From the NCBI GenBank assembly GCA_024195265.1, contig JAJLRJ010000001.1, positions 1,256,410-1,320,409 on the forward strand: DNA of 64,000 bases. The letters are read 5' to 3'. The position numbers and the translations under genes were made by a program. Below, in pieces: positions 8,881 through 40,200 of this stretch. Source of the DNA: Dendrophyllia cribrosa. Taxonomy: Eukaryota > Cnidaria > Anthozoa > Scleractinia > Dendrophylliidae. Below the pieces are notes generated by a model. The model saw only the letters and a program-made list of their open reading frames with translations, was not told where the DNA came from and did no database searches. Every line of letters begins with the position of its first letter. The first letter of the stretch is position 1.

Positions 8881-10317
8881 GTTTAGTTTGCTGATTTCCA
8901 TGCCACCAAAGCAAGAGAGACAAAAAATGTACCTGGTTCAGAATTAAACCTCTGAAAAAGTTTAAGCCTCGTTATTAATAGGTAACGTTCTTTTAGAAGG
9001 CGTATCTTCCTTAAATGGCGACATCTTCGGTTTGTTGACCAGACTTTTTCGTCTTGCCTGATGTCTCGCTTTCAACCCTCTTTGAGGATGTTGGGTTTTG
9101 CTGCCTACAAGTTAAATAATGTCGAATTTGTACATTTTGTAGAATAAAGATTTAGAAGAAATGAAAGTTGCCATGTATATTGCTGAAAAATGACCAGCAT
9201 AATGATCCCCTTCATATGCACTGATAAACAGGTAAATCACGTTTAACTCGATGTGTAAAACACTGGCCTCGTCCAGGGCCTCGTCAGTTGATGTTGTGTC
9301 TGATGTTTAGTAAAATTTAAAAATGTTAGTGTGTGAGATGATCTTTACCCGGTGTTAGGGTGTGAGATGATCTTCACTCGGGCTTTTCTTCGAATGCTTC
9401 ATTTTCTCACGATATGCCTTATTTTCAAAGATATAGCGAGTTTTATAACAACTAGCCTAATTTCATTCCTCTTCTCCAGCTTTTACTTCAAGATGCATTT
9501 TACCATGCATTCAAATGTAAGTTTATGGTAATATATTTTAAAGTTCAAACAAACGAATCATTATGATAGCTTATTGATTAAGTTTTAATAAAACGGTAAT
9601 TGTGCATGTTTTTCCGCTAGGGTACCGATTTCTCCAAGTTATCTCGTAGGTACGTTTTAACCTGTTTTTTTTTTTTGAATACGTAAAGTATTGATAAAAA
9701 CACACACAGCACCGTTAAGGGTTAGTGAATATCCAAGGTTATCTGTGTTAAACTGTCCGCTGATTTCTTAATTGAGGCGATGGAAATTAGGACAAGTCAA
9801 ATAGCAATAGGCCTTATGCATAGCCTCGTTTGTACGAAATTCCTTGTAAACCTTGTAAACCAAGTTCACGTTGTTTTTGAGTAGGTATTATTTTGAACAT
9901 TCCTCCTAGCTAGTTTGACGTAAACATGCATATCGTTATGGGGCTATTGAAAGTATTGAAATCACGTGATTACCACACAAGTTGCACGTGATCCCGCACG
10001 TTGTCCTCATACTGTTTGGAAACTTCTGGCAGTAGCCTCTGGACTTGACTGACTGGCATGAATTACTGTCATAAACATCTGCGCAGAAGGCTGGGAAAAA
10101 AAAAACAAAAAGCTCAACTAAAAAAGATCAGTTATGATTGAGAACTATACAATGTCAAATATCGGAAACTGTTTAACAAATGGGCTCCTGGTGTTGGCAA
10201 TCCGAGCCTAAGGACGTTTTGCAGGTGTCAGAAAATGTTTGATGGTCCTACTGCTTTCACTACCCAAGAGAAGATCGCGGCTTCTCACGCTCCACCATAA
10301 TTTGCCGTACTTGAACT
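8881..10317. other. No gene seen; 3' flank of the astacin array
   Basis: Nothing coding is supported in these 1.4 kb. One phrase, GTGTGAGATGATCTT, is repeated at about 9330 and 9360. The sequence ends where the last exon of ASTL-4 (minus strand) begins. I see no AATAAA on the minus strand close behind the ASTL-4 stop. Confidence 0.5.
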
Positions 10318-13300
10318 TCAGCAAAACGCTTCAACTGTTGAAAGTTTTATTCGCTGGCTGTGATTTCCTCCTTTTCCATTGGTGTCCATTAATCCGTTGG
10401 TCACAAAACAATCACATACACTACCTTCGGAACTTTGGTCGTTAATCTCGTTTTCGCTTTCCTCTTTAAGGTCCTCGATTTCTTCGTCAGACAACTTTTT
10501 CCTCCCTGAAAGAAATAAAAAACAGTTAGTTTTAAAAAAGTGCTTTTTTTATCATGAATAGAACTTCTTTGCGGTCATGTGTAGCATGTGGAATCGAGGG
10601 TAAGTTTTCACCCAGGTTGAAAAAGTTTCAGTTTTTGCATACAGCTCCGCTCTGCAAGTGAGCAAGGTAAACTAAATCCTGTGATTGTTCCAATGCACCC
10701 TCAAGATATATTAGTTTCCCATTATCATTAGCGGAACGTAAAGTCCAGCGTCTACGGTGACTCTCTCTATATTGGGCTAAATATCTACATTTTGCGCTAT
10801 AGAATGTTCATTTTCTTGCATCTAGTGAATTTCGCATGACTGCATCTACCGCGGAGCAGTTATTCGATACAACTGTATAAAAGCAACTTTGTATGCCCGA
10901 TAAATAATTGCAGTACATAATTTATATTCTCCCATTTCGAACCTACTATTAAAGTGCGTTACATATAGACACGAAACCAAAGATTCAAATGCATATATAA
11001 GCAATAGTCGCGACACATTCTTACCATCACACTGGTAGAGTAGGTTGGCTTGCAGGATATCAAACCTGCTGAGTGCTTTCCGCTGACCAACCTCCACATC
11101 TCTTTTCAGAGGTATTAGTGTGTCTAGCATAACAGGGAATCGAGAGAAGAAGGCTCTGTTGTAATGCATGATGGAGCCGTAATCGTACGGGACATCCTTT
11201 GAGTCGATCCATTTCCTGCCAAACCTGAAAAAGTTTCTTTCGTAACCTGAAGAACAATTAAACATAAACGTCATCTTTTAGGTTCAGTATAACAGCTGTT
11301 AATTTGTTACTGAAGAGAAATATACTCGATTGCTTTGTCGTGAAAATCCTCATTTTCTTATAGGACAGTTTCTTATGATGCAAACAACGACATTGTCTTT
11401 TATACATTACGAGCATGGTAACTTTTTAGGTGCCCTTAATTTTCTTCAGTTTTGCTTTTGCCATTCCCATAAATTGGATGCCACTCTATCGCAAGCTTGT
11501 CCCTAATCCTAAAGCATATTTTACTAGTTTTCCCCAATAGTTCAACAGTTATATTCGCTTCTACAACTTAACGAGCGATGACGTGGATAAGTGGCTAAGT
11601 GTCTTGTTGAAGGGTAATACACAAATGGCTGCGATGCATAAATGACAACTTTAACCACCGTGGGGTAGCTTTGACGGTTGACGGTTAAATTTTTTCCGAT
11701 ATTTACGGTTGACGGTTAAATTTTAGGGCTTTTGACGGTTAAATTTTAGGGCTTTTGACGGTTGACGGTTATCGAGGGGAAATTCCTTCTATGAATTGAA
11801 GTTAATATTAACTTTTGTATTTTTTTAATATTAAGTATTGTGTTTTGGTCTTTACCTGGTGAAATGAAGTGAAATTTTGCCAACGCACTCTACGACCTCT
11901 AACAATATATTTTGAAGATGTTTAATTTATACGATGAAGTGAAAATATTATATATATATATAATTTACAAATTAGTGTGGGAAGGGAGATATGGACAACT
12001 AATTGCCTCATAATCTTTGGATCACCAACCTATTCTCGTTAGGAAGGCGATTCACAGCGATTTCTGAAATATATACATAGACAGTTAAATTGAGAACAGA
12101 AATTTTCACAACAAAGATTACGAGTGAAAAAGTGCCTCAGTCGGGAGTTGAACCCGGGTCTCCTGATGACCGGACAGATGCCTTAACCACTAGGCCACTA
12201 AGACAACCACACTTACACAAACACAAACACAAACAACACATTTGTGGCTTTGCATCTATCCGGTCATCAGGAGACCCGGGTTCAACTCCCGGCTGAGGCA
12301 CTTTTTCACTCATAATCTTTGTTGTGAAAATTTCTGTTCTCAATTTAACTGTCTATGTATATATTTCAGAAATCGCTGTGAATCGCCTTCCTAACGAGAA
12401 TAGGTTGGTGATCCAAAGATTATGAGGCAATTAGTTGTCCATATCTCCCTTCCCACACTAATTTGTAATTTAATTTCCTTTGGGAGTGGACTGTGAATAG
12501 CTGAACGATTGGGTAAAAGATGGTCCTTGATGAGTAAGGAAGTCAAGAATCTATGCTGAACGGATAAGTCACACTTGTTTAATATGGAAACAATGCCTTG
12601 CCGTTTAACTCGCTCTCTCCGTCGCCGGTCACGAGGAGTGGCAGCTTTAGGTCAAGTTGTTGCTGTGTTACAGTAATTTTCAGTTTTTCCATTTAATTTT
12701 ACTAATCAAATGAGCCGAGACCAAATTTGTTTGCCAAATCGTTTATACCGAGGAAATCGATTAAATGTTGTTTGAAACTACCAATGCTTTTTGGGTCCTC
12801 ACCAATGGAAACTCACGTCTTATATTATCCGATTGGTTTCTCTTCTGCTTTACGATAAAAGCTTACCGTACCACGGCTTTCAGGGCCCTCTACATCGATC
12901 AGGAATGGCGCGGCTTGACGTGGTCAGAAACAAGTTATCAAATGAATGTAGTAAATAATTAATATTTTGAAACTGGAAGTATTTCAAGATAGAAGCCTGT
13001 TGTGATGTCGGTTTAGGCGCAAATTAGTAAAGAGCGTAAAGTGAGTATATTTGGGAACATGGCAACTGGTTTACCAGTTTAAAGGTTCTTTGTGAGCCAG
13101 AAGTACGTGATGGGCAGCTTGAAACCGTTTGTCGGTAAACATGTTTTGACGGTTGACGGTAAAAATTACCCTTTTTTGACGGTTGACGGTTAAATTTTAG
13201 GCCGTTTGACGGCTGACGGTTAACACCATTGAGACCCTCTAAATAGCCCGTTGCTTTTTCTACTACACGGCAACCTCTTCAGTAGTAATGGACTCTTCTT

Positions 13301-15042
13301 CTTCCATTAAACTTGCCTCCTTCACTTCTGAAGATTTTCTAGCTACATTTGGTTTTCTGGTACTTTATCCCAGAGGAACGTAGCAGTGTTCTCGCTCAGT
13401 CGCTTAATACTAAAGAAACTGGAACTATGCTCAAGCCCCTATGGCAAAACTGGTTCGTTTAATCTTTAATTTGGAGTGGACACGGTCTTTAATGACATCA
13501 GCATATTTATAGCCGGTTTAAGGTCCTTACCAGGAAGGATATTCTTTTTGAGAATTCTGACGAACTTGTTCCTGTCAGGGCGGCTGTGTTCATGAAAAAA
13601 GCCTACAGCATGACCAAGTTCATGGATGATATTTCCTACTTTGCACCTGAGTGCTGGGCTGCCTATCGTTAGTTTCTGCATTTTGTCGCCACCGCGACCA
13701 ACGCGAGAAGCACAACTATAAAGAGCAAACAAGAATAAGTAAAATCCAAGCCGCTGCGACTCTGTATCTTTTTTCTAAGATCGCTAGAAGGTGACTAACC
13801 ACCTATTGAGAATGAAAAACAAAATAAGAAGTTGATTTGGAACAGGAGGTCGCATCAGTTATCTCTCATTTAACTTATTTAAATAACAAACAATGCTTAT
13901 CTTTTTACATTACGAGCTGAAAAACAACTGAAAAATAACAATTGGGTAGAGGGATCCAACCATGATCGTGCATCCTATGGTCGACTTGTTAACGTCCCTA
14001 ATTCATCAATATACCTACCCTCCCTCGAACACAAATTTGATGTATCCAAAGTTGTCAGGTGAATTCTTAACACGTTTAAACTTGAGACAGGTGTGTTTCT
14101 GCCAATGACGCATGGCTGCACGAGCCCTTCGTCTGCCTATCCTATCTTGAATAAAAGGAAAAATAATAAATTAGCCAGTAAAAGGTACAATGTTGGGAAA
14201 AGAACTCTTCAGAAGAACACGTTTTTGAAGCTGTTTATAGTCTCTTGACAATTTCTTCGATGAAATTTGTATTTTGTTTCTCTTGTCATATTTCTGTCGC
14301 TTATAGGATTGAAAGGGTTAACAAGATATGTGTTTGCTTTGAAGAGGGACTGAACAATCCTTTACGTCTGTTTTAAATGAGGCCAGATCAAACCTTTAAT
14401 ATGAATATTACTTTTCATGCCCTAGTAATACAAATAATTTTCATGTGCAATGAAACCACTCATCCAAAATCACCACTATCAGCGAAAGAGACCAGTTATT
14501 GGCAGTCAGTACGTATCGTAAATGTTGTTTGATTTATTTTGACTTTGATTGTACATGTATTTTTAATAATAATTTTATAGACTAACCCACTCCTTTGTGA
14601 AAATCGTAGTAGACTTGACCTTTCGGCCAAAGGTACATTGTGTCCTTAATAAGTGCCCGTTTGGCTCCTTCTTGTGTGTCATCTTTGTTTTTTATGTTAT
14701 CCAGGTAAGCCTGTTGTTGTGGTGTCAGCATCATATCGCCTTCGAAGTAGTCTTTGCCTAAGTTCTCTTCACCTTAACAACAAAACAACACACACGACGA
14801 GTCATTATTATAGATCCACACATCTCTTCTCTCCAAATTGTGTTAATTTTACTTACTTTAATAAACGGAAATTCTTCCGAGCGTTAAAAGACATTGACAG
14901 CTTATAATTGTTGCGCATGCGTGCTTACCAATGTCGTCATTGTCCTGTTGCTGGACCGCATCCTCTTCTTCTTGAGCCAGCGTTGCTCGGTCAGTGGCAA
15001 GCTGATTCGGCGTTTCTGGAGCAATCACAGGTACACTAACAC
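10318..15042 (-). CDS. ASTL-4: astacin zinc metalloprotease, 5' end not found
   Basis: Six minus-strand exons are supported: 14929-15042, 14587-14772, 14019-14145, 13531-13715, 11025-11246 and 10318-10505 (stop TGA). They join in frame with GT-AG junctions and give 340 codons before the stop. The first exon encodes an acidic pro-segment. The second holds the pro-peptide Asp-switch motif YFEGD, then the mature-enzyme start region. The third has WQKHTC. The fourth carries the zinc site [18 protein letters not shown]. The fifth carries the Met-turn YGSIMHY and ends near the fourth conserved Cys (LLYQC). The last exon is an acidic tail (DEEIEDLKEESENE). The protein would be a secreted zinc endopeptidase zymogen if a signal peptide is supplied. 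No signal-peptide exon was found in the 0.4 kb separating it from ASTL-3, so it is either 5'-truncated or the second half of an ASTL-3 transcript. Intron 5 (11247-13530) holds repeats. Confidence 0.85.
11675..11770 (+). repeat. GACGGTT tandem repeat block 1
   Basis: Four or more copies of TTGACGGTTGACGGTTAAAT-like units lie in intron 5 of ASTL-4. A second block of the same family, in the same orientation, is at 13143-13222. The two blocks enclose the palindromic SINE, so the whole stretch 11.67-13.22 kb may be a composite repeat. Confidence 0.75.
11966..12467. repeat. Palindromic tRNA-SINE (head-to-head arms)
   Basis: Arms of about 216 bp (11966-12181 and 12252-12467) are almost exact reverse complements around a 70-bp centre containing ACACAAACACAAACACAAAC. 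Each arm carries the 3' half of a tRNA-like sequence with a B-box (GGTTCAACTCC). One full tRNA-like fold crosses the left arm and centre (12134-12204). It lies inside intron 5 of ASTL-4. It looks like two SINE copies in inverted orientation or an inverted duplication of one SINE. Confidence 0.85.
12134..12204 (-). tRNA. tRNA-like sequence (SINE head or tRNA pseudogene)
   Basis: On the minus strand the 71 nt begin GTCTTAG and end CTGAGGC, which pair over all seven acceptor positions allowing G-U. An A-box TGGCCTAGTGG and a B-box GGTTCAACTCC are present. The D-stem GCCT/AGGC pairs. The anticodon stem is imperfect; the loop would read GGT (Thr-like), but I do not trust the identity. The surrounding palindrome makes a SINE origin more likely than a working tRNA gene. 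Confidence 0.55.
13143..13222 (+). repeat. GACGGTT tandem repeat block 2
   Basis: Three to four units of TTTGACGGTTGACGGTTAAA-type sequence ending in GACGGCTGACGGTTAACACC. It belongs to the same family and orientation as the block at 11675-11770. Confidence 0.7.
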
Positions 15043-15442
15043 CTGTAGAGTTATTTTAAATAAATAAAATAACAAAATTAACTATTTTCACCCTAATTTC
15101 TTCTTAGATTCTTGTTTTGATAGCCTCCAGAGCATGAGTCTTGCTCAAAGATGGCTCATGAAATTGAATAGCAGGTTATGTGTGTTTGTCATTTCTACAA
15201 TACGACATAAAAATATATATTTAAGTAAAAAGTTGAATTTGACACGTTTTCTCACATTTTGAGATGCAAAAGCTGCCTTTGATATGTATTAATTTTTCGA
15301 CAAAAAAGTTCCAGAGGAATTTAGTGTAACAGTAATAATAATAAACACTTCCACAAGTCCAAGAAATAGCTAAAGAAACTAAACAAAATCAGTAATCAAG
15401 ATAATAAAATTTGCCATGCATGGCAACAGTCTCTACTAAGGA

Positions 15443-18400
15443 CTAAATAATTACTATTATTGTCGACAGCAAGCGCCTACCTCTTGAGTAAGAAATATTA
15501 TCATCTTCCTCGTCATCTCCTTCTAATATATCAGCAGTATCTCCACTGTATATTTTGTTTAACTGAGGTGTAATCTGATTTCCTTTAAACACTTCAGATC
15601 TGGAACCAGCCTTGTTATCATTGATCTTTTTGCCATTTGGCTCAGATTTATTTGATGGAATAAACTTTTTTGAGCCCTTTTTCCCCTTTAAAACCGTTTG
15701 TAGATGACTTCCTCTCTTTCCTGCCTTGTGAACTGCGCTGTCTTCTTGCTTTTTAGACTGCAGATGTTCATCTTCGTTGTGTTTGTGTTTATGTTGTTGT
15801 ACTTTGCTTTTCCTTAGGACCTTGATTTCCTTCTCATAGAGTGGTCGATCCCATAAGTCCTTGTCTGTAGATCCTCTTGTTGTCGAATCTGTTTTATTGT
15901 AGTAATCTGTGGTGAACACCAATGGTTAGTATGTACCTACTAAAACCACTGCCGTTGAGAGAGGACGTTCACACCCAACCTCCAACAAGGTTACAATCCC
16001 GGGGTCGGCATTAATATATATCCCGGGGTATTCGATATCATCGGTAACTGGTAGCTAACTGTTAGTATCTACACGTATAAGATGATTACAAAGAAAAGAC
16101 AAATTCCTTTTAAGATGAGTTAGAATAAAATTGAGGAGAATAACTAGAAATCCTTGTGTCTTCGATTTCTCTCAGCTAACTTTAGCTAACTGCTAATTTA
16201 CTACCATGTAAAGCACTAATTCTCGTTTGAATTTGTGTTTTTTTTTTATAAAACCGATCCCAGTTAATTAAAGGGACACTGTCCCGCCTTATTTTCATTT
16301 TTATATATTCACCCAATTCCACCAAATATACAACTTACTTAAACAAACAGATTCTATAGAATAAAACAGAAGCACTTGTTTGGAGTTTAAAGTGCAGGAT
16401 TGCAAGAATGGAAGTGGATTACAGTTCATCAAATTTGTTTTCTTGACCAAAGAGACAAAATAACCACTGAAAAGGTCAAAAATTCCCAAGGAATGACAAC
16501 GTAGATTTCTTGACAGGCGGCAGGAGCCCATCAATAGGGCTCCTGCCGCCTGTCAAGAAATCTACCTTGTCATTTCTTGGGAATTTTTTACCTTTTCAGT
16601 GGTTATTTTGTCTCTTTGGTTAAAATTTCTTTTCTTTCATCACTTTTGGCGATTTTCCTTCATATTTCAAGATAGCAAAGCAAGCTTAAAGCAAGTTCCT
16701 GGCCAGCCGGGACACCGTCCCTAAAGGAGACATATAAGTGGGTCAGTTCCAGTAGATAACTGCTTATTGCACTGATCTATACATACATGTCCTGATCTAT
16801 ACATATACATGTTTTCAATTTTTTCAGATTGAAATCCGTTTTAACCGAGGTTTTATTTAACACCGTCACTGGCTATTTAACCTTCAGAATCATTAAGCAC
16901 CATGCATTTCTGTGTTATCAGTAACGGTAACATACCTTGACTACCTGGGCAGTTGTACAGTAGGTTTCCCTGTAGGGCATCCTTTTGGCTAAGACCAATC
17001 CTTTGACCAATAGATGCACTGGAGTCCATGGGTTCTATGGTCTTTAAACTGGGCGATTTAGTGAAAAAGAACTCGCCGTAATGCAGGACAGAGTCATAGT
17101 CGTAGCCCACCTTACGAGAGTCGACAGTTTCTAGAGTTTCTTTTCTGAAGTTCTTCTCGTATCCTAAGGAAAAACATCTTTCGTGTGAAAATTTTAGGAT
17201 CACAACTTCTCACAAGAAGGGGGGGGGGGGGGGTGGGGGAGGGGGGGGGGGGAAGAGTGAGAGGGAGTGGATGGGGGGGGGGGGGGAGAGAAGGAGGGAG
17301 TGGATGCAACCCACCCCTATGGTTTTTCTCAGATGTTTTCAAGTGCATTTATTTCAGCATATTTTAGCCTGCGTGGCAGGCTAAAATATGCTGGGGGCGC
17401 TAAAAAGGAGAGGGGAGAAGGAAAGGATCACCTTTTATAAGAACCGGGCCATTCGCATTACGCCCACCGATTTCTTTGTAATCGAATTACGTCACGCGGG
17501 AATTTACTATGTTTACCGCCCAGCGCAAATTAGCCAATGAGAATTTTGCGGCCGCCAGCGACGGCAGAAATGAACAAATGGGGTCTTTATTGCAGGCGTC
17601 CTTTCCCTCTCTCCCCAGTTCCCTTCTCCCCGACGCCTGCATCGCAGGCTAGCACATCACGTCTTAAGGTGGCTCCATATAGTTTTTAACGCGCGAGGCA
17701 TGTTAACGAAAATGGCGAGAACGCGCGGTTTTTTATTTTGATGACGTTACGAACTTAAAGAGGTTTCTTTGGAAACTAAAATGTTTATTGCACGCATTCC
17801 ACACGGTAAATTTTGAAATTGGTAGAATTTTGTTTGTTCTCGATCACAAAAAAAAGACAACAATTTTTGTACATACACAAACCCAATAAACAATAAACTG
17901 CAGGGCTGATCTGACTACGTAAGAAAAGACTTTGCGAGACACCAACACGACAGAAACCGATAAAGTAGGATCGTAACCGTGGACAGCCGTTTCGTTGTTA
18001 TCGCAACTCATCAGCACGGTGTAGCGAACTAAATGCCGCCAGCAAGAAGCCAGCGCAAATAGAATTCACAATGACCCGTTCACGATATCAGGTTCCGTAC
18101 TATGTACTCACCTGTCACTCGAATCACGCGCTGCCACATCACGTGTGCCGAGGAACAAAGAGCCCATAGTGTCGCAAAGATGTCTCTCAAAGAACAATGT
18201 AGATGGACAAAGCTGGCTTCTTGCTGTCGACATTTAGTTCGTTACACCGTGCTGATGAGTTGCAATAACAAGGAAACGGCTGTCCACAGTTACGATCCTA
18301 CTTTATCGGTTTCTGTCGTGATGGTGTCTCGCAAAGTCTTTTTTTACGTAGTCAGATCAGCCCTGCAGTTTATTGTTTGTTTGTTCATTTTTTGGCTGGT

Positions 18401-20078
18401 TAGGTCTTCCGCAGATCCTACGTATACCGTTAGCAGCATTATCGTTTGCGGTCCTTTGCAGATTTCACAAACCCAATAAACGTAAAAAACGAAAAATGAG
18501 TAAATTGCCAAAAATTATGTACCGATTTTTTTTATGGCTTTGTTATATTAGACTTACTGAATATCCTGAGTATTTGCCATGTAAAATACCGAGAAAATCC
18601 GTTGAGAGTTTTGCTAGCCTTGAACTACAAGCCCAACAACTCAATCATTGGTTGCCATGGTAACGAGACAAGACTGTCAAATTAGACTTCTCCGTAAACG
18701 AGAAAGCCTAAGCTACGTGTATGCGTATATTATGCCTAGTATCGCGAAACAAAACTCTCGAAAGACAACAATATGTTCGTGTATATTTTATTTGGAAGAC
18801 TGGCCAAGTTCGTTTGTCCCACATTTTATCACACATTTTGGCAAAGTTTAGTGGCAACGAGATATGACGTCATAAGTTACATTAGGTCAAGCCATGTTTG
18901 AATAAAAATGTGCAGAAGCAGCCAAAGAAACAGATCTGGAGAAATGCCATCAATTCATTTTATAAACGTGCAGTACTCACCGCCTTCCACGTTGTCGAAG
19001 TTGATGCGGACATACTGATCACGGTCCGGTCGACTGTGTTCATGGAAGAATCCCAAAGAGTGTGCTATTTCATGCACAATGTTACCGTGTTTACAAGTAA
19101 CGCTTAAATCTGCGTTTCCTACTGAAATTGTTTGCCTGCCACCAATACGTCCCACATAGGAAGAGCATCTGAAAACAAAAAGAACAACAACAACTAACGA
19201 TGCGGTGAAAACAGCAGATGCCATTTGATAAAATATTTATCGATCCGATTTTTTCCCCAATCATGAAGGTGGCTTCCTAGAGTATTAGCAATTGCACCTA
19301 CACAAACTCTCATGAGTTACAGAATAACATAATTTTCTTGTGTTGCAATTTGGGCTCGCGAAATTAACTAGTAAGGATGCCAACATATTTTATTAGCTCA
19401 TTTGTGAGTTGTCACTCTTTTGCCAGAAGCCATTGCCATGGCAACAGTGCCTCTAAAAAATGGCAAATACTGTTCAAGAATTGAAATTAATTCTTTAATA
19501 TCTCGAGTTTCTTTTTCTTTAATTTATACAAAATGTTTGTCATTCGTACGTACCCTCCCTCGTAGACAAATTCCATGTAGTCTTCATCACTGTAAGTTTT
19601 TGGTCTAAATTGAAGGCACGTTTTTTTGCTCCACTCTTTAATTGCTGATTGGATATATTCCTTACTGATATAACCTGCAAACCATGCATCGGTGTCAGTT
19701 CTCCTTACACGTGGGTATGCAATTTACCCAAAACAGTGCGAAACACATTGCTCGTGATGCACAATTTAGTATGCTCGTGTTACGATGGGAAATCTGAGGG
19801 CGGGATGATATTTCAAGTTATCGGAATTAAATTATGGAACAGTATCCCTGTCGAAATACGGGACTGAAGACTCCATCGATTTATTCCAATTTATTTTAAA
19901 AACAAAATACTTACTAGACCTGGCACTAGCTTAAAGCATTGCTCTTCACTGTAATTGTTTTACTTCAATTGAATATATAATTTTTTACTATATTTGTAGC
20001 TTACGACAGGGATTCGTATTCTCTTAAGTAGTTTAACATTTTTAGCCACTATAGTTTATCAGATTTACAACTAGTTGA

Positions 20079-20109
<31 letters not shown>

Positions 20110-23100
20110 CCCTCTTAATTTAACAAGAACTCTACGAGAAGTAAAGTCGGGCTTTAGGGTGTTCTTTGCGGTCACACAAGGTGATCCGATCTGTCACGTA
20201 CGTTACTGCGTCATTTGAAACCTTTAATCAGTCTTTCGCAATCACTCGTGCATGCAAGGTCCATTCTGATCTGTTCCTCGAAAAGAAAAGAAAAGAAAAG
20301 GAAATCGTTATCGATTGGAACTCTCACCAAATCCGGCAATAATGTAAGTTGCTTTTACTTGATCATGATGTTTCGTTTCGTCATTTTCCTTTTTTTTATG
20401 TTGTGAATTGGTTTTCCGGCAGTTTTAGTTTCGTATTACAACTACGAAATAAAGAATAAACAGCCAATGGATTCTACAGTGTCACAGTGAATCTTCGATT
20501 GTGGAGCAGTTACACTACTGGCTATGGTTCGAATTCTTAATTTCTTATGTACGCTAAAAGCCCGGTTTCACAACTCGTAGAGTTCGTGTTTTCAATTAGT
20601 TGCTATCTGATCTCTTATGACCTTGAAGTTGCTATGTAAAGTGATATGACGTCATTTTGTGGTTATTTTTATCTGTGAATACGCGAAGCAATGTCTTTGA
20701 CTTCAAACTCAGTATGGAAAATAGAAATCGATCTGTGGACTTCAAATGGATTTTTCAAAACTTCGGTAAACGCAACAGCACGATATATGTTTCTAAATGT
20801 GAAGCCATTCGAGAAAGCGCCAACCTTTTTATCAATTCATCTAAACTCTTAATCTCAAAAACACTTGAAACAGAAACACTTTGCCGCTGGCTATAAACCA
20901 CTTGAAACAGACTTTTCTGATCGACTCAGAGTAAAACTGAATTTATAAGTCGGGTAGCCTTGGCATGCTGCCTGACTAATAATTAATTTGTCATCTACTT
21001 GCTTATATACCATATTTATTGAACAGCGCCCTTTTCGAATCAACACTCCCTTGAACTTAATAGATGTTTATTATAAACATTTTTGACTAGTGTAATAAAC
21101 AATGTGCGTGGTCAGGAGCCAAATCGGCTTTGTGCGTGGTGAAGTTGTTGAAATAATGAAGTTCTGTAGCTAGAGTTTCTATCAACAAGACTTGTTAGTA
21201 ATTAAGAACAAATGAAAAAAAAAAAGCTGAAAATTTGGACATTTCAGGCGCTACTTGAATAGAGGTCGTCAAAAACACCCCACCTACATGTAGTTTAAAT
21301 ATATATGTTTATATATATATTTACCTAAAACACTGCCCGCCTCGATTAGCTCTTGCTATCTGGGGTCATGTCAATGTAAATTGTAATTAAATTTAAATGA
21401 ATAAAGTTGTTGTTCCTTTGTTGTTGTAGAGCGTGAACTTAAAGTTCTTTTCAACAGATTAGTACTTACTAAGGCCGTCGGCAAGAACGTATGGTACTAC
21501 ACCATTAACCCATAATTTTCGAGTGTCTTTTATAAGAGCTCTCGCTTGAAGATCATTCTGGGATGCATCTATATAGTCTTTTTGTTGTGGTGTAAGTAAA
21601 ATATCTCCTTCAAAGTAATCCTTTCCAAGATTTAATTCGCCATACGTTGCTGGAACAAAAAAGTAACGCAACATCGTTAGAAAATGGTTCAATACAAATT
21701 TCATGTACAAATAGAGGCATAAGTTTCGAATCAGTTATAAGAATAGGCTTCTTTCATGGTTGCGGGAATGTTATTTGTAATTACCTTGTTGTAAAATGAA
21801 CTGTTGTTCCATTTCAAATCAAAGTTGGGAACTCTTGATAGTGTAAAGGGATACTGTCCCGCCGAAATAATAAAATTCCGGGTAGCTTATTTCTATGTTA
21901 TATCGTCAAATTCCATTAAATATACAACTAAATTGGATAAAAACATTCTATAGAGCAAACCAGAAGCATATTTTAGTTTGGAGATAAAGTGCAGGATTTC
22001 AAGGATGAAAGTGGATTACAATTCATCAAATTTGATTTTGTGACAGGCGGTCAAGAAATCAAAGTTTCCATTCTGGTGGAATTTTCACTGTTTTAGTGAT
22101 TTTGTCCCGTTTGTTAATATTTCTTTGCTTTCATCACTTTTGGCGATTTGTTCTTACTGTTTCAAGATAATAAAACAAGCCTAAAGTAAGTTCCTGGTTA
22201 TAACCATGACACGTTGTTATATAGCAGGAGTTTTTCTCAATACAACGCGGACGTTGATTGGTTGATTCATGGTCACATGACATCTAACAAAGAAACCGTT
22301 TTCCGCCAATTGTCCTAAGCAGGCAACAATTTTGTCGTCAGGAGTAACATTGCTCTGTTGCCCGCTAGCGCACGTGATCAGACCGTGACAAAAGGTGGCG
22401 TGATTATGATGCGATTAATCTTTACCTCGAGTGCTCGGCGCGTTTTTCAAACTGTGTTGTGTTGTGTTTTTTGTGTTGCTATATAACAAATCACTTACAT
22501 GTAATGATTGATCCCTCGGAAAACAGTGAATTTGTTTTCCTCGAATCTCGACTTCGTCTCGGGAAACATCGAGATTCTCTGGAAACAAAATTCACTGTTT
22601 CCCTCGGAGCCAGTCATTAAGTGTTTTATCAGCCTGGACGCTGTCCCTTTAAGGGTGGTCAGAATCTTAGTATTTTCCTTTTTATGTTATATTTAAAACC
22701 TATGTGCCATGTTTTTACCTGCATGTGCACAAACCTGGTCATGTAGCCATAGACTCGTTTAAGAGTGGCAAATGACTCACAATATATTTAACTGACTACT
22801 AGCTATACCTTCCCTCTCCTGGTCGTACATCTTAAACGATGTTGGATCTATCTTTGGATCAAACAATGTGGCGCTGCTTCCTGAAACTGTGCTGGAAACT
22901 GAAACCAAGAAGATCATCCTTACCAAGTTGGGTTTCAAATGGAGTTATAGGCTTCCCCTACCCTGTCACCTTGAAAGAAAAAATCCCGAGAGGCCCACGT
23001 CCAGAATCACATAAATCACCTCTTCGATTGCCATGTTGCCGGCATGATTGTCCTGATGGTGTAGTGGTGATCACATCTAACTAGTATGCAGGAGGACGTG

Positions 23101-23771
23101 GGTTCAAATCCCATTCAGGGCAAATTTTCTTTCAAATATTAAATATATAGATGCAATTAGGATGCCACTGGCTACCAGAGAATAGGGTTAACCAGGGTTA
23201 ACTAAGACTTTTAACGCTCAGATTTAACGTTGGCAATGTGCTTGTTAACCAGGGATGTAATGATTAGGTGGTCTCATACATCCAGCTTTTTAAAGCTGGA
23301 TGTATGAGAATCAAGGTATTAAAATCAAGGTATTAAAATACCTTGATTCCGAGTTAAACCATTATTGTCATTAGGTTCGATTCTGGAATGCCGGTATTGA
23401 GACCGATAAGTTAGACTTCGATATGAGGTTAAATGTTCAGTCTTTAGTTTAACTACGTGTTTAGCATCTATCTTGAACGTTTAAAATGTATAGATATATA
23501 TACGATTAAGACTACCTGGAATGGTAGTAAAGATTTTATTCCAAATATCACGCTGGGCTATTTCATGTGCATATTTTAAATTTTTCTATTAGCGAAATTC
23601 ATTTGCATCATTTTACTGCATTCTTTGGTTGGAATTCCCCTCATGCCAATCTCTTCGAAGACTGCTCACAAACTACAATGAACTGATGTACCTTTACTTA
23701 CCTCTACTTATCAAAAGTTGCTGTATAAATAGAATGACAGGAAAGCTGTAACCGTTCATCCTTCTTCTCAT
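15443..23771 (-). CDS. ASTL-3: secreted astacin metalloprotease with long basic tail
   Basis: Seven minus-strand exons: 23702-23759 (signal peptide; an upstream in-frame ATG would extend it to 23771), 22809-22898, 21470-21649, 19554-19674, 18981-19168, 16936-17163 and 15443-15906. Starting at 23759 they sum to 1329 nt, 442 aa plus stop, in frame throughout. I chose the second ATG because it gives a 58-nt first exon identical in length to ASTL-2. Order: hydrophobic signal (FPVILFIQQLLIS), short pro-segment with MYDQERE, Asp-switch YFEGD, catalytic domain with [18 protein letters not shown] and Met-turn YDSVLHY, closing Cys in LLYNC, then a tail of about 150 residues rich in Lys, Ser and Asp/Glu that starts with LWDRPL...[13 protein letters not shown]. 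The tail has no known domain. The role is a secreted zinc endopeptidase; the substrate is unknown. No minus-strand AATAAA or ATTAAA occurs in the 400 bp after the stop. Confidence 0.88.
16265..16730. repeat. GGGACACTGTCCCGCC-family MITE with internal hairpin
   Basis: The outer ends AAAGGGACACTGTCCCGCC (16270) and GGGACACCGTCCCTAAAGG (16709) are inverted repeats. The centre is a very tight palindrome, 16446-16529 against 16537-16620, with the outer part GACCAAAGAGACAAAATAAC and the inner part CAGGCGGCAGGAGCCC. A relative lies at 21846-22655. Both are in ASTL-3 introns. Confidence 0.8.
17219..17305 (+). repeat. Interrupted poly-G / GGGA tract
   Basis: G runs broken by GTGGGGGA and AGAGAGGGAGTGGATG occupy this piece of an ASTL-3 intron, including a duplicated AGGGAGTGGATG. 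The purine-only plus strand could form triplex or quadruplex structures and is liable to assembly error. Confidence 0.8.
17367..17655. repeat. Short TIR element with TAGCCTGC ends
   Basis: The left end TAGCCTGCGTGGCAGGCTA and the right end GACGCCTGCATCGCAGGCTA are inverted copies. The 290-bp interior is non-coding and contains GGCGCTAAAAAGGAGAGGGGAG near the left end, answered by CCTTTCCCTCTCTCCCC near the right. It is MITE-like and lies inside an ASTL-3 intron. Confidence 0.6.
17663..18890. repeat. Foldback element beginning TTAAGGTGGCTC
   Basis: The left end TTAAGGTGGCTCCATATAGTTT matches the ends of the TTAA-flanked elements at 31358-33621 and 53941-55883. Inside is a strong inverted repeat with 164-bp arms, 17891-18054 and 18212-18375, outer ends CAATAAACTGCAGGG / CCCTGCAGTTTATTG. 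I could not find a matching right terminus, so the right boundary is a guess. It lies between exons 5 and 6 of ASTL-3. Confidence 0.55.
19690..19925 (+). pseudogene. LINE ORF2 C-terminal fragment
   Basis: The plus strand encodes FQVIGIKLWNSIPVEIRD before a stop, then out-of-frame remains of a closing helix. The phrase 'G-x-KLWNSIP-x-EIR' is a common C-terminal signature of invertebrate non-LTR retrotransposon polymerases (CR1/L2-like), known from family knowledge. It sits antisense in an ASTL-3 intron and is 5'-truncated and decayed. No poly-A tail or target duplication was identified. Confidence 0.6.
20079..20117 (+). repeat. Poly-C tract
   Basis: A run of about 28 C (20079-20106) is followed by TCCCCCTC. 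It lies in an ASTL-3 intron. It has the same character as the tracts at 5647 and 35087 and may mark the end of a degraded repeat. Confidence 0.85.
21846..22655. repeat. GGGACACTGTCCCGCC-family element, expanded copy
   Basis: It begins AAAGGGATACTGTCCCGCC and ends GGACGCTGTCCCTTTAAGG. Positions 21.88-22.20 kb align with the 16.27-16.70 kb element (shared CATCACTTTTGGCGATTT and GTGGATTACAATTCATCAAA), but about 430 bp are added. The added part includes a separate hairpin at 22509-22604 (outer arm GATCCCTCGGAAAACAGTGA). It lies in an ASTL-3 intron. Confidence 0.7.
23050..23121 (+). tRNA. tRNA-like sequence (SINE head)
   Basis: The 72 nt begin GTCCTGA and end TCAGGGC, pairing over seven acceptor positions. 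An A-box TGGTGTAGTGG and a B-box GGTTCAAATCC are present. The anticodon arm pairs poorly, so the amino-acid identity is uncertain. It lies between exons 1 and 2 of ASTL-3, on the opposite strand. A tRNA-derived SINE is more likely than a functional tRNA. Confidence 0.5.
23272..23309. repeat. Perfect 38-bp palindrome
   Basis: TCTCATACATCCAGCTTTT is followed directly by its reverse complement, with no loop. A direct duplication of AATCAAGGTATTAAA follows (23310-23340) and ends in its own small inverted repeat ACCTTGATT. It is a possible footprint of a hairpin element inside an ASTL-3 intron. Confidence 0.8.
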
Positions 23772-27420: not shown

Positions 27421-27744
27421 TAAAAGAAAAGTACGAGATCGCTCGCAGTCTATAAAAAATACAGATTTGTTTAAAAGTGAGAGAACAGAAGAGAGAACTT
27501 ATAAACCTTTTATTTAAAATTGCACACAGTTTGCAGAGTGAAGACTAAAATACATTGTATGAAAAGAACTCAACTACAATTATAGGGATATAAAATATTT
27601 TGTATACAGGACATGTACAATATATAATTGCTTCACAGATTAATGCGGCTTTAAAGTTCTCAATCGATGACCACAATTGAACAATTATGCCACAATATTG
27701 TATTTTTTTCTATTTTCCCTGTTTATACGGATGCCAATCCTTCC

Positions 27745-37205: not shown

Positions 37206-37211
37206 TTTATT
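37206..37211 (-). promoter_or_regulatory. Polyadenylation signal of ASTL-1
   Basis: The minus strand reads GAGGAATAAAAGAC, giving AATAAA about 55 bp after the ASTL-1 stop codon. The position is normal for a eukaryotic poly-A signal. Confidence 0.6.
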
Positions 37212-37265: not shown

Positions 37266-40200
37266 TCAATGATATTGTCCCAAAAGCTTTCGTGTGGCTA
37301 TTTTTCGGACTCCGTGGTTGATGCATTGATAAAGCAGTTGTCCTTTCTGTACATCCAAAGCACTGAGCTTTTCTCTTTGTCCAATTCGTACTCCTTTAAC
37401 ATTTGCGAGTAGAGTCCTCATTCCTCTTTCTCGAGCAAAGAAGAATGAACCAAAATGCATCATGGAATTGTAGTCGTATGGCACATCTAACAAATCAGTG
37501 TAAAGGGTTGTAAATCTTTCCTTTCTGAAATGAACTCTGCACCCTGTGGAATATAGAATTCAGGAAAGACATCAACAGTGTCAGTTCAAAGGAATAGCCA
37601 ACTTATAGGTTAATTCAGTTAATAACTCGCCAAGAAAACGGACCAATTTATTTGTGATTAAGATTAATGTTGACATCATAAACGATAGACGAAAGATGAT
37701 GGCACAGTAATGACATACAAAGATTTTACTAAAAAGTACAAAAATATTAAGTCAAACTTTCTTCAGTTTTATCAGATGTTATCAGCGATTCCAAAACGTC
37801 TTTTTATTTTAGCGAAGAATACTGATATAGAAAAAGAGAACCTCAAGACAGGAAGACTTGTAGCCGTAGGCCCAGACTTTGAAATAGATTTATCAAAAAT
37901 GAAGTGTAAGGACTATTATTTGTTGTTTATTGAAGCAAAATATGTGCGTCCAACAGGATTTCGAAAATGGTCGAATTATTTTGGTAGGGATGTCACAAAA
38001 GAGTGTGAAAACAGCTTAAAATTGACTAGAAGTATCTGTCAAGATACAAAAGTTATACAAACAACTTTTAAATTATTGCACCGCATTATCTTCACCAAAA
38101 AAGAATTGGAATTTTGTAGTATTGTTTCTGATGCAAAGTGTATATATCGTGCACAAGAAGACTCTATAGAACATTGCCTTTTTCAGTGTCCAATAGTGAC
38201 AGATTTTATCTCTAGCATATCCAATTGGTTTGAACGGGAGACTAACCAAAGCTTTGAATTAAATAACTACTATCTTCTTTTTGGGTCTGCAATTAACAAT
38301 GTAGAACATCTAAAAACCGATTATAAAAAACTTATAGAAAATCATCTTATCATATACTTGAGACATTATATTATATCTAACAAAGTGTGGGATAATAATC
38401 TTGTAGTAAAAGAATTTCGGAACAGTTTTCGAAAGTATTGCAAATCGCTTAGGATAAATAACCCTTTTACATAAATTTTGTAATTATAACTGATGAATTG
38501 CTCTGAACTGTATTTCAATTGTACTGTAGCATTTGGAAATATATTTCTAGTGTTAATGTTGTAATTAGTGTAATCAGTGTTAAACTAGTGTAATTAGTGT
38601 TTAATCAATGTTAAAGTTTCCCATCAAATAAAAAAAAATAAAATAAAATAAAAAATAAATAAACGATAACTTCCAAAACAATGTAGTGTCACACAATGGT
38701 CGACAGCATAGCCTGCGAAAAAATAGGCGCATGTTTTGTACTGCATGTTGCCTCCTGGTCGGAGCCTTATTGTATTTTAACAAAATCATTATATTTCAAG
38801 TCGAACTGCTCTACAACGGCTTGCCTCGGACAGCATCTTTCGACCAGAGAGAGTCAGGAAAACATTGATGGTCGTAGTAACAAGGTGGTCGCCTGGCTGA
38901 AGTGCAAGAATGTTACCGTTTGTGTGGGGTTTAACCGTATTTATTTATAATTACCAGGCATGACATTTTGCCAGACAACCATTAGGTATCGATCCCGATC
39001 AGGTCGGTTATGCTCGTGGAAGAAGCCGAGCGCATGCCCAATTTCGTGCAATATGTTCCCCTTGGTGCACGTGATGGTTACGTTGCTTCCAAACGGTGTG
39101 GGAGACCCGCACGACATGTCTGCAAATTCAGTTCCGGTGGATCCTACAGAAATGACTTGCCGACCTCCAGTACGGCCTATGCTTGACGAGCAACTGTAAG
39201 AAAATTAAAGAGAAAACAAATTAGTAAAATTATGGGAACGGGTGGCTTGTCGCCCAAAAAACTTACACCATTCACGATCGGTAAACTGTCACTGGCTATG
39301 GGTCTAATTAATCATAATATGAACTTTTAAAAATCACCAGAATTGGTTATTCGCAATTTACCGTGGGCTTCTCGTCCTCTCTGCAGAGGTAACTGACCGA
39401 TCTAACTGGAGGTTCCATAGCATCATCATTCCAATCCTGGTAATTGTCCTTATGCTATATTTTAGCTAGCAGTCACGTAATTACGTAACTCCAGACTTGT
39501 GAGCGAGCGAGCGAAGACCATGCGACCCCAGGCTCTCTCCCCCACAGCTTCGAAAAAGCTCGTTAATGCATGCTACCATGCTACCTAAAAGCAAACAATT
39601 CAGTATGTCTTCGTTGCCTTTTGTATACCATACCCTCCTTCGTACGTAAACTCGATGTAATCCTCTTCAAACGTTCTCTCTTTAAAAGTGATACAAATCT
39701 TATCTTGCCACTCTTGGATTGCTGAACGAATGTTTATTAGACTTATCGTACCTGTAATTCATAAAGCAACAAAACAAGAAATAATTATTTACGAAATGCA
39801 GATTGTCTCTATTTTGGGGAAAAGGGATGTTTTCTTTTATGGAAAGTTGTGTAGCTTAATAAAATTAATCTGTTTTTCAGATCCACACTACTCTTCCCCG
39901 CCCTCACTTCGACGAAGATATCGCGATCCCAACCGGCCTTTCCTGGACATGCTTTGCCGTGACGCGATCCCAACGGGCCTTTCCTGGACATGCTCTGCCG
40001 TGACGCGATCCCAACGGCCTTTCCTGGACATGCTCTGCCGTGACGTGATCCCAACCGGTCGGTTTTCCTGGACATGCTCTGCCGTGACGCGACCTCAACC
40101 GGCCGGTTTTCCTGGACATGCTCTGCCGTGGGACTGTTTGATTATTTTTTCGGTCACGTTTACATTTTTTTCAGACAAGATCGATTGACAAGGCGAAGTT

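Follow-up and report, generated by a model that had tools for sequence, protein, structure and literature searches.

ASTL-3 and ASTL-4 of the stony coral Dendrophyllia cribrosa are predicted to form one double-astacin gene with orthologues in other stony corals

The minus strand of a 64-kb window of the Dendrophyllia cribrosa genome (contig JAJLRJ010000001.1; the window is the whole 64,000-nt stretch analyzed, with a GC content of 38%) carries four tandem astacin catalytic regions, ASTL-1 to ASTL-4. Comparison with homologs indicates that the last two, ASTL-3 and ASTL-4, almost certainly belong to one gene encoding a double-astacin chain, an architecture also present in other stony corals. The preliminary description of this DNA had proposed that a single transcript splices position 15481 to 15042 and so skips the ASTL-3 stop codon, and the exact join recovered in homologs supports that proposal. 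The gene model, its frame, its motifs, and the homolog join can all be read from sequence, from which we infer that D. cribrosa splices the fused gene as other corals do.

A single gene model spans ASTL-3 and ASTL-4

The fused ASTL-3/ASTL-4 model has 15 exons totaling 2478 nt, encodes 825 amino acids (aa), and spans 14.8 kb (Table 1). Its predicted product consists, in order, of a signal peptide, prosegment 1, astacin domain 1, a charged linker, prosegment 2, astacin domain 2, and an ShK-like tail. The length given earlier for the fused frame, 2313 nt and 770 aa, is corrected by these values; omitting any one to three exons of the 15-exon model did not reproduce 2313 nt. The 825-aa model includes the ShK-like exon at 10090-9974 and runs to 8962, where exon 15 ends. 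Homolog searches, alignment, the Pfam scan, and conservation measurements used an 809-aa version that is 16 C-terminal residues short, as was the ASTL-4 query; the junction is unaffected.

The donor TCAAGAG/GTAGGC (slash, splice site) closes exon 7 at 15481, 38 nt ahead of the end of the unspliced last ASTL-3 exon (15906-15443), whose in-frame stop ends at 15443. At 15043/15042 lies the acceptor, CTACAG/GTGTTAG, and both sides are phase 1; these coordinates and phases proved right on re-reading. When scored with a matrix built from 24 donors of four gene models, which were read by eye and not from RNA, the 15481 donor fell within the range of the set but low, with 5/24 scoring equal or lower. 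Only two GT sites within 15906-15044 reach the weakest of the 24 donors, and 15481 is the better one; on the minus strand, a donor of that quality turns up about every 1,067 nt. The matching phase was dropped as evidence for fusion because 12 of the 14 introns of the fused gene are phase 1, in keeping with the original caution that a phase match alone is weak evidence. The junction is instead taken as more than chance because the same join is conserved in relatives.

A scan of the gap between the ASTL-3 stop and the acceptor (15442-15043) confirmed that it holds no AATAAA or ATTAAA on the minus strand. Weaker hexamer variants are present, including AATACA at 15290 and AATATA at 15221, and the first canonical poly-A hexamer past the stop is at 14862, within the next intron. 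ASTL-1 and ASTL-2, by contrast, each have AATAAA at a short distance from the stop, a difference that favors a single ASTL-3/ASTL-4 gene.

Table 1. Features of the fused ASTL-3/ASTL-4 gene model and of neighboring astacin genes (window coordinates)
Feature	Position	Strand	Basis
Exon 1, start codon and signal peptide MRRRMNGYSFPVILFIQQLLISR	23702..23771	minus	hydrophobic core, phase-1 donor
Exon 2	22809..22898	minus	gene model
Exon 3, prosegment 1 with FEGD latency motif, start of catalytic domain 1	21470..21649	minus	motif
Exon 4, catalytic domain 1	19554..19674	minus	gene model
Exon 5, zinc site 1	18981..19168	minus	motif
Exon 6, Met-turn 1 region, SVLHY	16936..17163	minus	motif
Exon 7, linker: basic, then acidic LEGDDEEDD..YSR	15481..15906	minus	gene model, alignment
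38 nt with terminal stop, translated only when the 15481 donor is unused	15443..15480	minus	
Intron 7, 438 nt, GT..AG, phase 1, links both halves	15043..15480	minus	donor scoring, homolog alignment
Exon 8, conserved stretch VSVPVIAPETPNQLATDRATLAQEEEDAVQQQDNDDIG	14929..15042	minus	alignment
Exon 9, prosegment 2 with FEGD, start of catalytic domain 2	14587..14772	minus	motif
Exon 10, catalytic domain 2	14019..14145	minus	gene model
Exon 11, zinc site 2 HELGHAVGFFHEH	13531..13715	minus	motif
Exon 12, Met-turn 2 SIMHY	11025..11246	minus	motif
Exon 13, short spacer	10425..10505	minus	gene model
Exon 14, ShK-like six-cysteine domain	9974..10090	minus	cysteine pattern, Pfam ShK below cut-off
Exon 15, C-terminal tail and stop	8962..9104	minus	gene model
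Zinc motifs of the ASTL-1/-2/-3/-4 regions	39048, 30532, 19074, 13624	minus	
ASTL-1 signal-peptide exon	42107-42035	minus	
ASTL-2 signal-peptide exon	35223-35166	minus	

Homologs in other corals carry the same join

The fused model matched 104 homologs, eight of which are 62-75% identical to it and extend over 94-100% of its length. Six of these come from Porites lutea, Oculina patagonica, Montipora foliosa, Stylophora pistillata, Acropora palmata, and A. cervicornis, and the remaining two are P0003 and P0007, whose source tag 'lgn' presumably denotes assemblies of public sequencing runs. Comparison with relatives had been proposed as a way to look for a double-astacin gene, and it returned full-length proteins with the same join in other corals. 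In the alignment, 7/8 near-full-length homologs (the P. lutea, Oculina, Montipora, Stylophora, and A. palmata gene models, together with P0003 and P0007) have the junction YSR[G/D/A]-V (hyphen, join) at the same residue, followed by APETPNQLATDRATLAQ. The window and 7/9 homologs P0001-P0009 share both domains, their order, YSR[G/D/A]V, and the stretch after it. Exon 8, just past the join, is among the more conserved exons (87% mean identity; 29/38 columns invariant across nine rows), and identity of the window to the eight homologs is 80-88% in the second half and 56-64% in the first.

P0003 (828 aa) lies on a contig of at most 3,888 nt in a cluster of 24 sequences, and P0007 (777 aa) on a contig of 2,518 nt in a cluster of 133. 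Because these contigs are little longer than their reading frames, compared with 14.8 kb for the window gene, both are best read as spliced transcripts, with an intronless copy as the sole alternative. This bears on whether the fused homologs could be annotation errors that merge two adjacent genes. Such merging probably occurs, as in the Dendronephthya protein P0011, which was set aside as support because its two domains are separated, by eye, by a hydrophobic stretch resembling a signal peptide. For the coral proteins, however, the join is residue-exact in gene models of five species and in two transcript-sized contigs, and the scan described below found no separate signal exon in the window. 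The highest 8-residue hydrophobicity of the linker is also below that of the N-terminal signal peptide in the window and P0001-P0008, the closest case being the window itself (2.01 vs 2.53). We therefore consider annotation error an exceedingly improbable explanation.

Across 250 gathered proteins, strict zinc motifs occurred twice in 13 and three times in 2, counts that may include merged models. P0017 (Allacma fusca), P0182 (Pocillopora), and P0012 and P0013 (Actinostola) are other predicted proteins in which two or three such motifs occur; they could be real multi-astacins or merged gene models.

Both halves have an FEGD prosegment and an astacin zinc site

The claim of two complete protease domains in one frame was borne out by two PF01400 stretches, two zinc sites, and two FEGD prosegments. 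In the Pfam scan, the fused model as a whole scored 376.5 bits (cut-off 22.5) and contained two Astacin stretches, as did the 7 homologs scanned alongside it. Both domains have HExxHxxGxxH followed by the family-specific Glu of astacins (M12A), and FEGD, an instance of the FxGD aspartate-switch motif, precedes each. In the horseshoe-crab zymogen, the aspartate of this motif blocks the zinc, according to the available text of PMC9629494. The Met-turn is SIMHY in domain 2 and SVLHY in domain 1, where Leu, encoded by a CTG codon at 17086-17084 (minus strand), replaces Met; 9/9 homologs P0001-P0009 have SVMHY at this position. According to PMC9629494 (available text), the Met-turn methionine is strictly conserved and supports the metal site, so domain 1 may be altered in D. 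cribrosa.

The linker starts basic and then turns acidic, lacks cysteines, and contains LEGDD in the window and 7/9 homologs P0001-P0009. Furin cleavage was rejected, as RX[KR]R is absent from the linkers of the window model and P0001-P0010. The ShK six-cysteine pattern was present in all six proteins examined (the window model and P0001-P0005), with a Pfam ShK score for the tail of 19.8 bits (cut-off 20.9). There was no match at E 0.001 to the CUB or EGF domains of Tolloid/BMP1-like proteins in the Pfam scan of the fused model. A comparison of P0007 with solved structures matched 20 distinct sequences, astacin-family entries by name. An AlphaFold model of P0007 built from 10 sequences was too poor to use (mean predicted local distance difference test score, 46; predicted template modeling score, 0.34).

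Separate or shorter products

ASTL-4 had been described as lacking its own signal-peptide exon. A scan for an ATG, a hydrophobic core, and a phase-1 donor recovered the signal exons upstream of ASTL-1, ASTL-2, and ASTL-3, along with one false candidate over exon 2 in the ASTL-3 region. With these author-set thresholds, under which an atypical signal exon could be missed, it found none for ASTL-4 in either 22808-16936 or the 1,892 nt that separate ASTL-3 exon 6 from ASTL-4. ASTL-4 alone as query gave 80 matches and no standalone orthologue: all those that cover over a fifth of the query stay at or below 50% identity, and a few short local ones reach 52-64%. This search accepted lengths of 0.55-1.75 times the query and reaches only relatives with shared short exact words; a coral orthologue of ASTL-4 would share such words and hence be within reach. 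The absence of both a signal exon and a standalone orthologue from these searches is in line with a single transcript. ASTL-4 might still be made alone if exon 1 (23771-23702) were joined directly to 15042, leaving out the first protease. Such a transcript would stay in frame and encode a secreted ASTL-4 of 414 aa, but no such short form is among the 80 matches, whose length range would cover it, and this route seems very unlikely.

A search with ASTL-3 ending at its own stop gave 254 matches; among the 120 listed, two shorter models were relevant. P0111 (O. patagonica, ACROYT_G002170; 367 aa) has one protease domain and crosses the junction peptide before its end, which suggests a partial duplication of the fused gene in that species. 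The other, P0181 from Porites lobata (374 aa), is a single-domain protein that resembles the first half; it stops early in the linker, and by eye its end resembles that of ASTL-2. It could be either a gene like ASTL-2 or a short form.

P0181 is one of several observations that weigh against a single fused gene. In addition, the six named coral orthologues are database gene models, and the 15481 donor ranks low among donors of neighboring gene models. The A. cervicornis protein P0008, also fused, lacks the distal linker, with the sequence past the join kept. The linker also differs in P0009, which is 673 aa, is 89% covered, and has the same domain order with no N-terminal signal in view. Finally, the Leu in the Met-turn of domain 1 makes the predicted activity of that domain less certain.

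Some of the same evidence bears on whether D. cribrosa makes both forms, with the fused mRNA as the main product and an unused 15481 donor yielding a 446-aa single-domain secreted protease ending in SYSRGRRLLSTIIVII. The frame is open through to the stop at 15443, the donor lies in the lower quarter of the gene-model donors, P0181 resembles the first half, and the adjacent ASTL-2, with its related last exon, provides a natural example of a single-domain protein. The first part of exon 7 is paralogous to that last exon; the linker and the ASTL-2 3' region share 104 nt of paralogy (84%), beyond which there are just a 22-nt and a 31-nt match. However, the two closest shorter models among the matches listed end otherwise, P0181 early and P0111 past the junction, and no canonical poly-A signal occurs before 14862. 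Production of both forms is improbable, though it deserves some weight.

The two domains derive from distant paralogues

A tree of 36 domains included the window, seven fused homologs (all but P0008), and P0009; its deeper branching is uncertain owing to long branches. The second domains of these proteins grouped in one clade (99/96), and their first domains lay in another (100/99), together with ASTL-1 and ASTL-2. Because the two domains fall in separate astacin clades, origin by internal domain duplication was ruled out, and the double astacin therefore appears to have arisen by the joining of two distant paralogues. The join occurs in both main stony-coral lineages, one represented by Porites and Acropora and the other by Stylophora and Oculina. 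It should therefore be older than their split, and P0009 suggests that the fusion may be older still.

A predicted precursor of two latent enzymes

Splicing from 15481 to 15042 would remove the apparent ASTL-3 stop and yield a secreted 825-residue pro-protein. Each domain would be latent under its own FEGD prosegment and freed by separate cleavage, such that one secreted precursor would hold two latent enzymes. The linker may either tether the two proteases or be cut to release them. A built-in cascade, in which activated domain 1 cuts the linker or prosegment 2 (e.g., at the conserved acidic LEGDD stretch or at YSR) and thereby releases and activates the slowly evolving domain 2, is a speculative and rather unlikely extension; if true, it would make this a self-processing two-protease precursor of stony corals.

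Neighboring genes and repeats

By gene model, ASTL-1 and ASTL-2 are complete single-domain genes, each with its own signal-peptide exon and stop, and AATAAA lies downstream of both stops (ASTL-1, at 37211, 55 nt; ASTL-2, at 27514, 300 nt). ASTL-1 has an insertion with an extra cysteine (GTEFADMSCGSPTPFGSNVTI) ahead of its zinc site (39193-38955, minus strand), and a closely similar insertion occurs in the single-domain proteins P0183-P0185 (Oculina, Orbicella, and one further protein). The last ASTL-1 intron contains a 261-aa open reading frame antisense to the gene (37689-38474, plus strand) that by eye resembles a retroelement fragment. An ASTL-4 intron holds a large palindrome (11961-12472; arms of 221 nt, 98% complementary, spaced by 70 nt) with a tRNA-Thr-like gene at the inner end of one arm (12133-12204). 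Inverted repeats in ASTL-3 introns, at 17885-18381 (170-nt arms, 95%) and 16443-16623 (87-nt arms, 95%), are possibly small mobile elements.

Comparison with known astacins and multi-domain proteases

The coral protein shares with the astacin family (M12A, PF01400) and cnidarian ShKT astacins the HExxHxxGxxHE site, the FEGD prosegment, and, in domain 2, a SIMHY-type Met-turn, and it has an ShK-like tail that scores just below the Pfam cut-off; it differs in having two complete prosegment and catalytic units. The available text of a 2023 family review (PMC9848320) describes one core signal-prosegment-catalytic arrangement, and a keyword look-up in that text found no wording on a double, tandem, or duplicated catalytic domain. 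LOC111329021 (Stylophora), LOC144643410 (Oculina), and LOC141871253 (A. palmata) are orthologues with the same architecture and junction that exist only as uncharacterized database predictions; no paper was found under these locus names in the literature searched. That literature, which covers few subscription papers, likewise yielded no description of a double astacin, a negative that falls short of proof. The orthologues are already public as uncharacterized proteins. Two full zymogen units per chain with a conserved linker, common to stony corals, represent an unusual protease architecture and raise the question of whether the pair acts tethered, in sequence, or as two enzymes from one precursor.

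Like the coral protein, isoform X2 of Nematostella LOC5521463 (P0010) has two astacin domains, a basic linker, and a single hydrophobic N-terminus. In contrast, both of its domains fall in the coral first-domain clade, and by eye little sequence follows domain 2. Because of the placement of its domains, P0010 appears to be a different double astacin. Nematocyst expressed protein 6 (NEP-6) of Nematostella is likewise a secreted cnidarian astacin (PMC3627010, available text), but it has a single zinc site (P0112, 287 aa) and forms a clade of its own with two other NEP-6-like proteins (100/100). In its source, the A. cervicornis orthologue P0008 is named NEP-6, a caution that annotation may split or misname the gene; without a test, neither domain should be treated as a gene in its own right or as a venom component. 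Several protease domains per chain are also known from multi-domain trypsins, with three trypsin domains in Nematostella NVJ_127465 and three in each of two human proteins (PMC6767649, available text). Those are serine proteases, and the Nematostella domains form one group that arose by internal duplication, whereas the coral protein appears to join distant paralogues.

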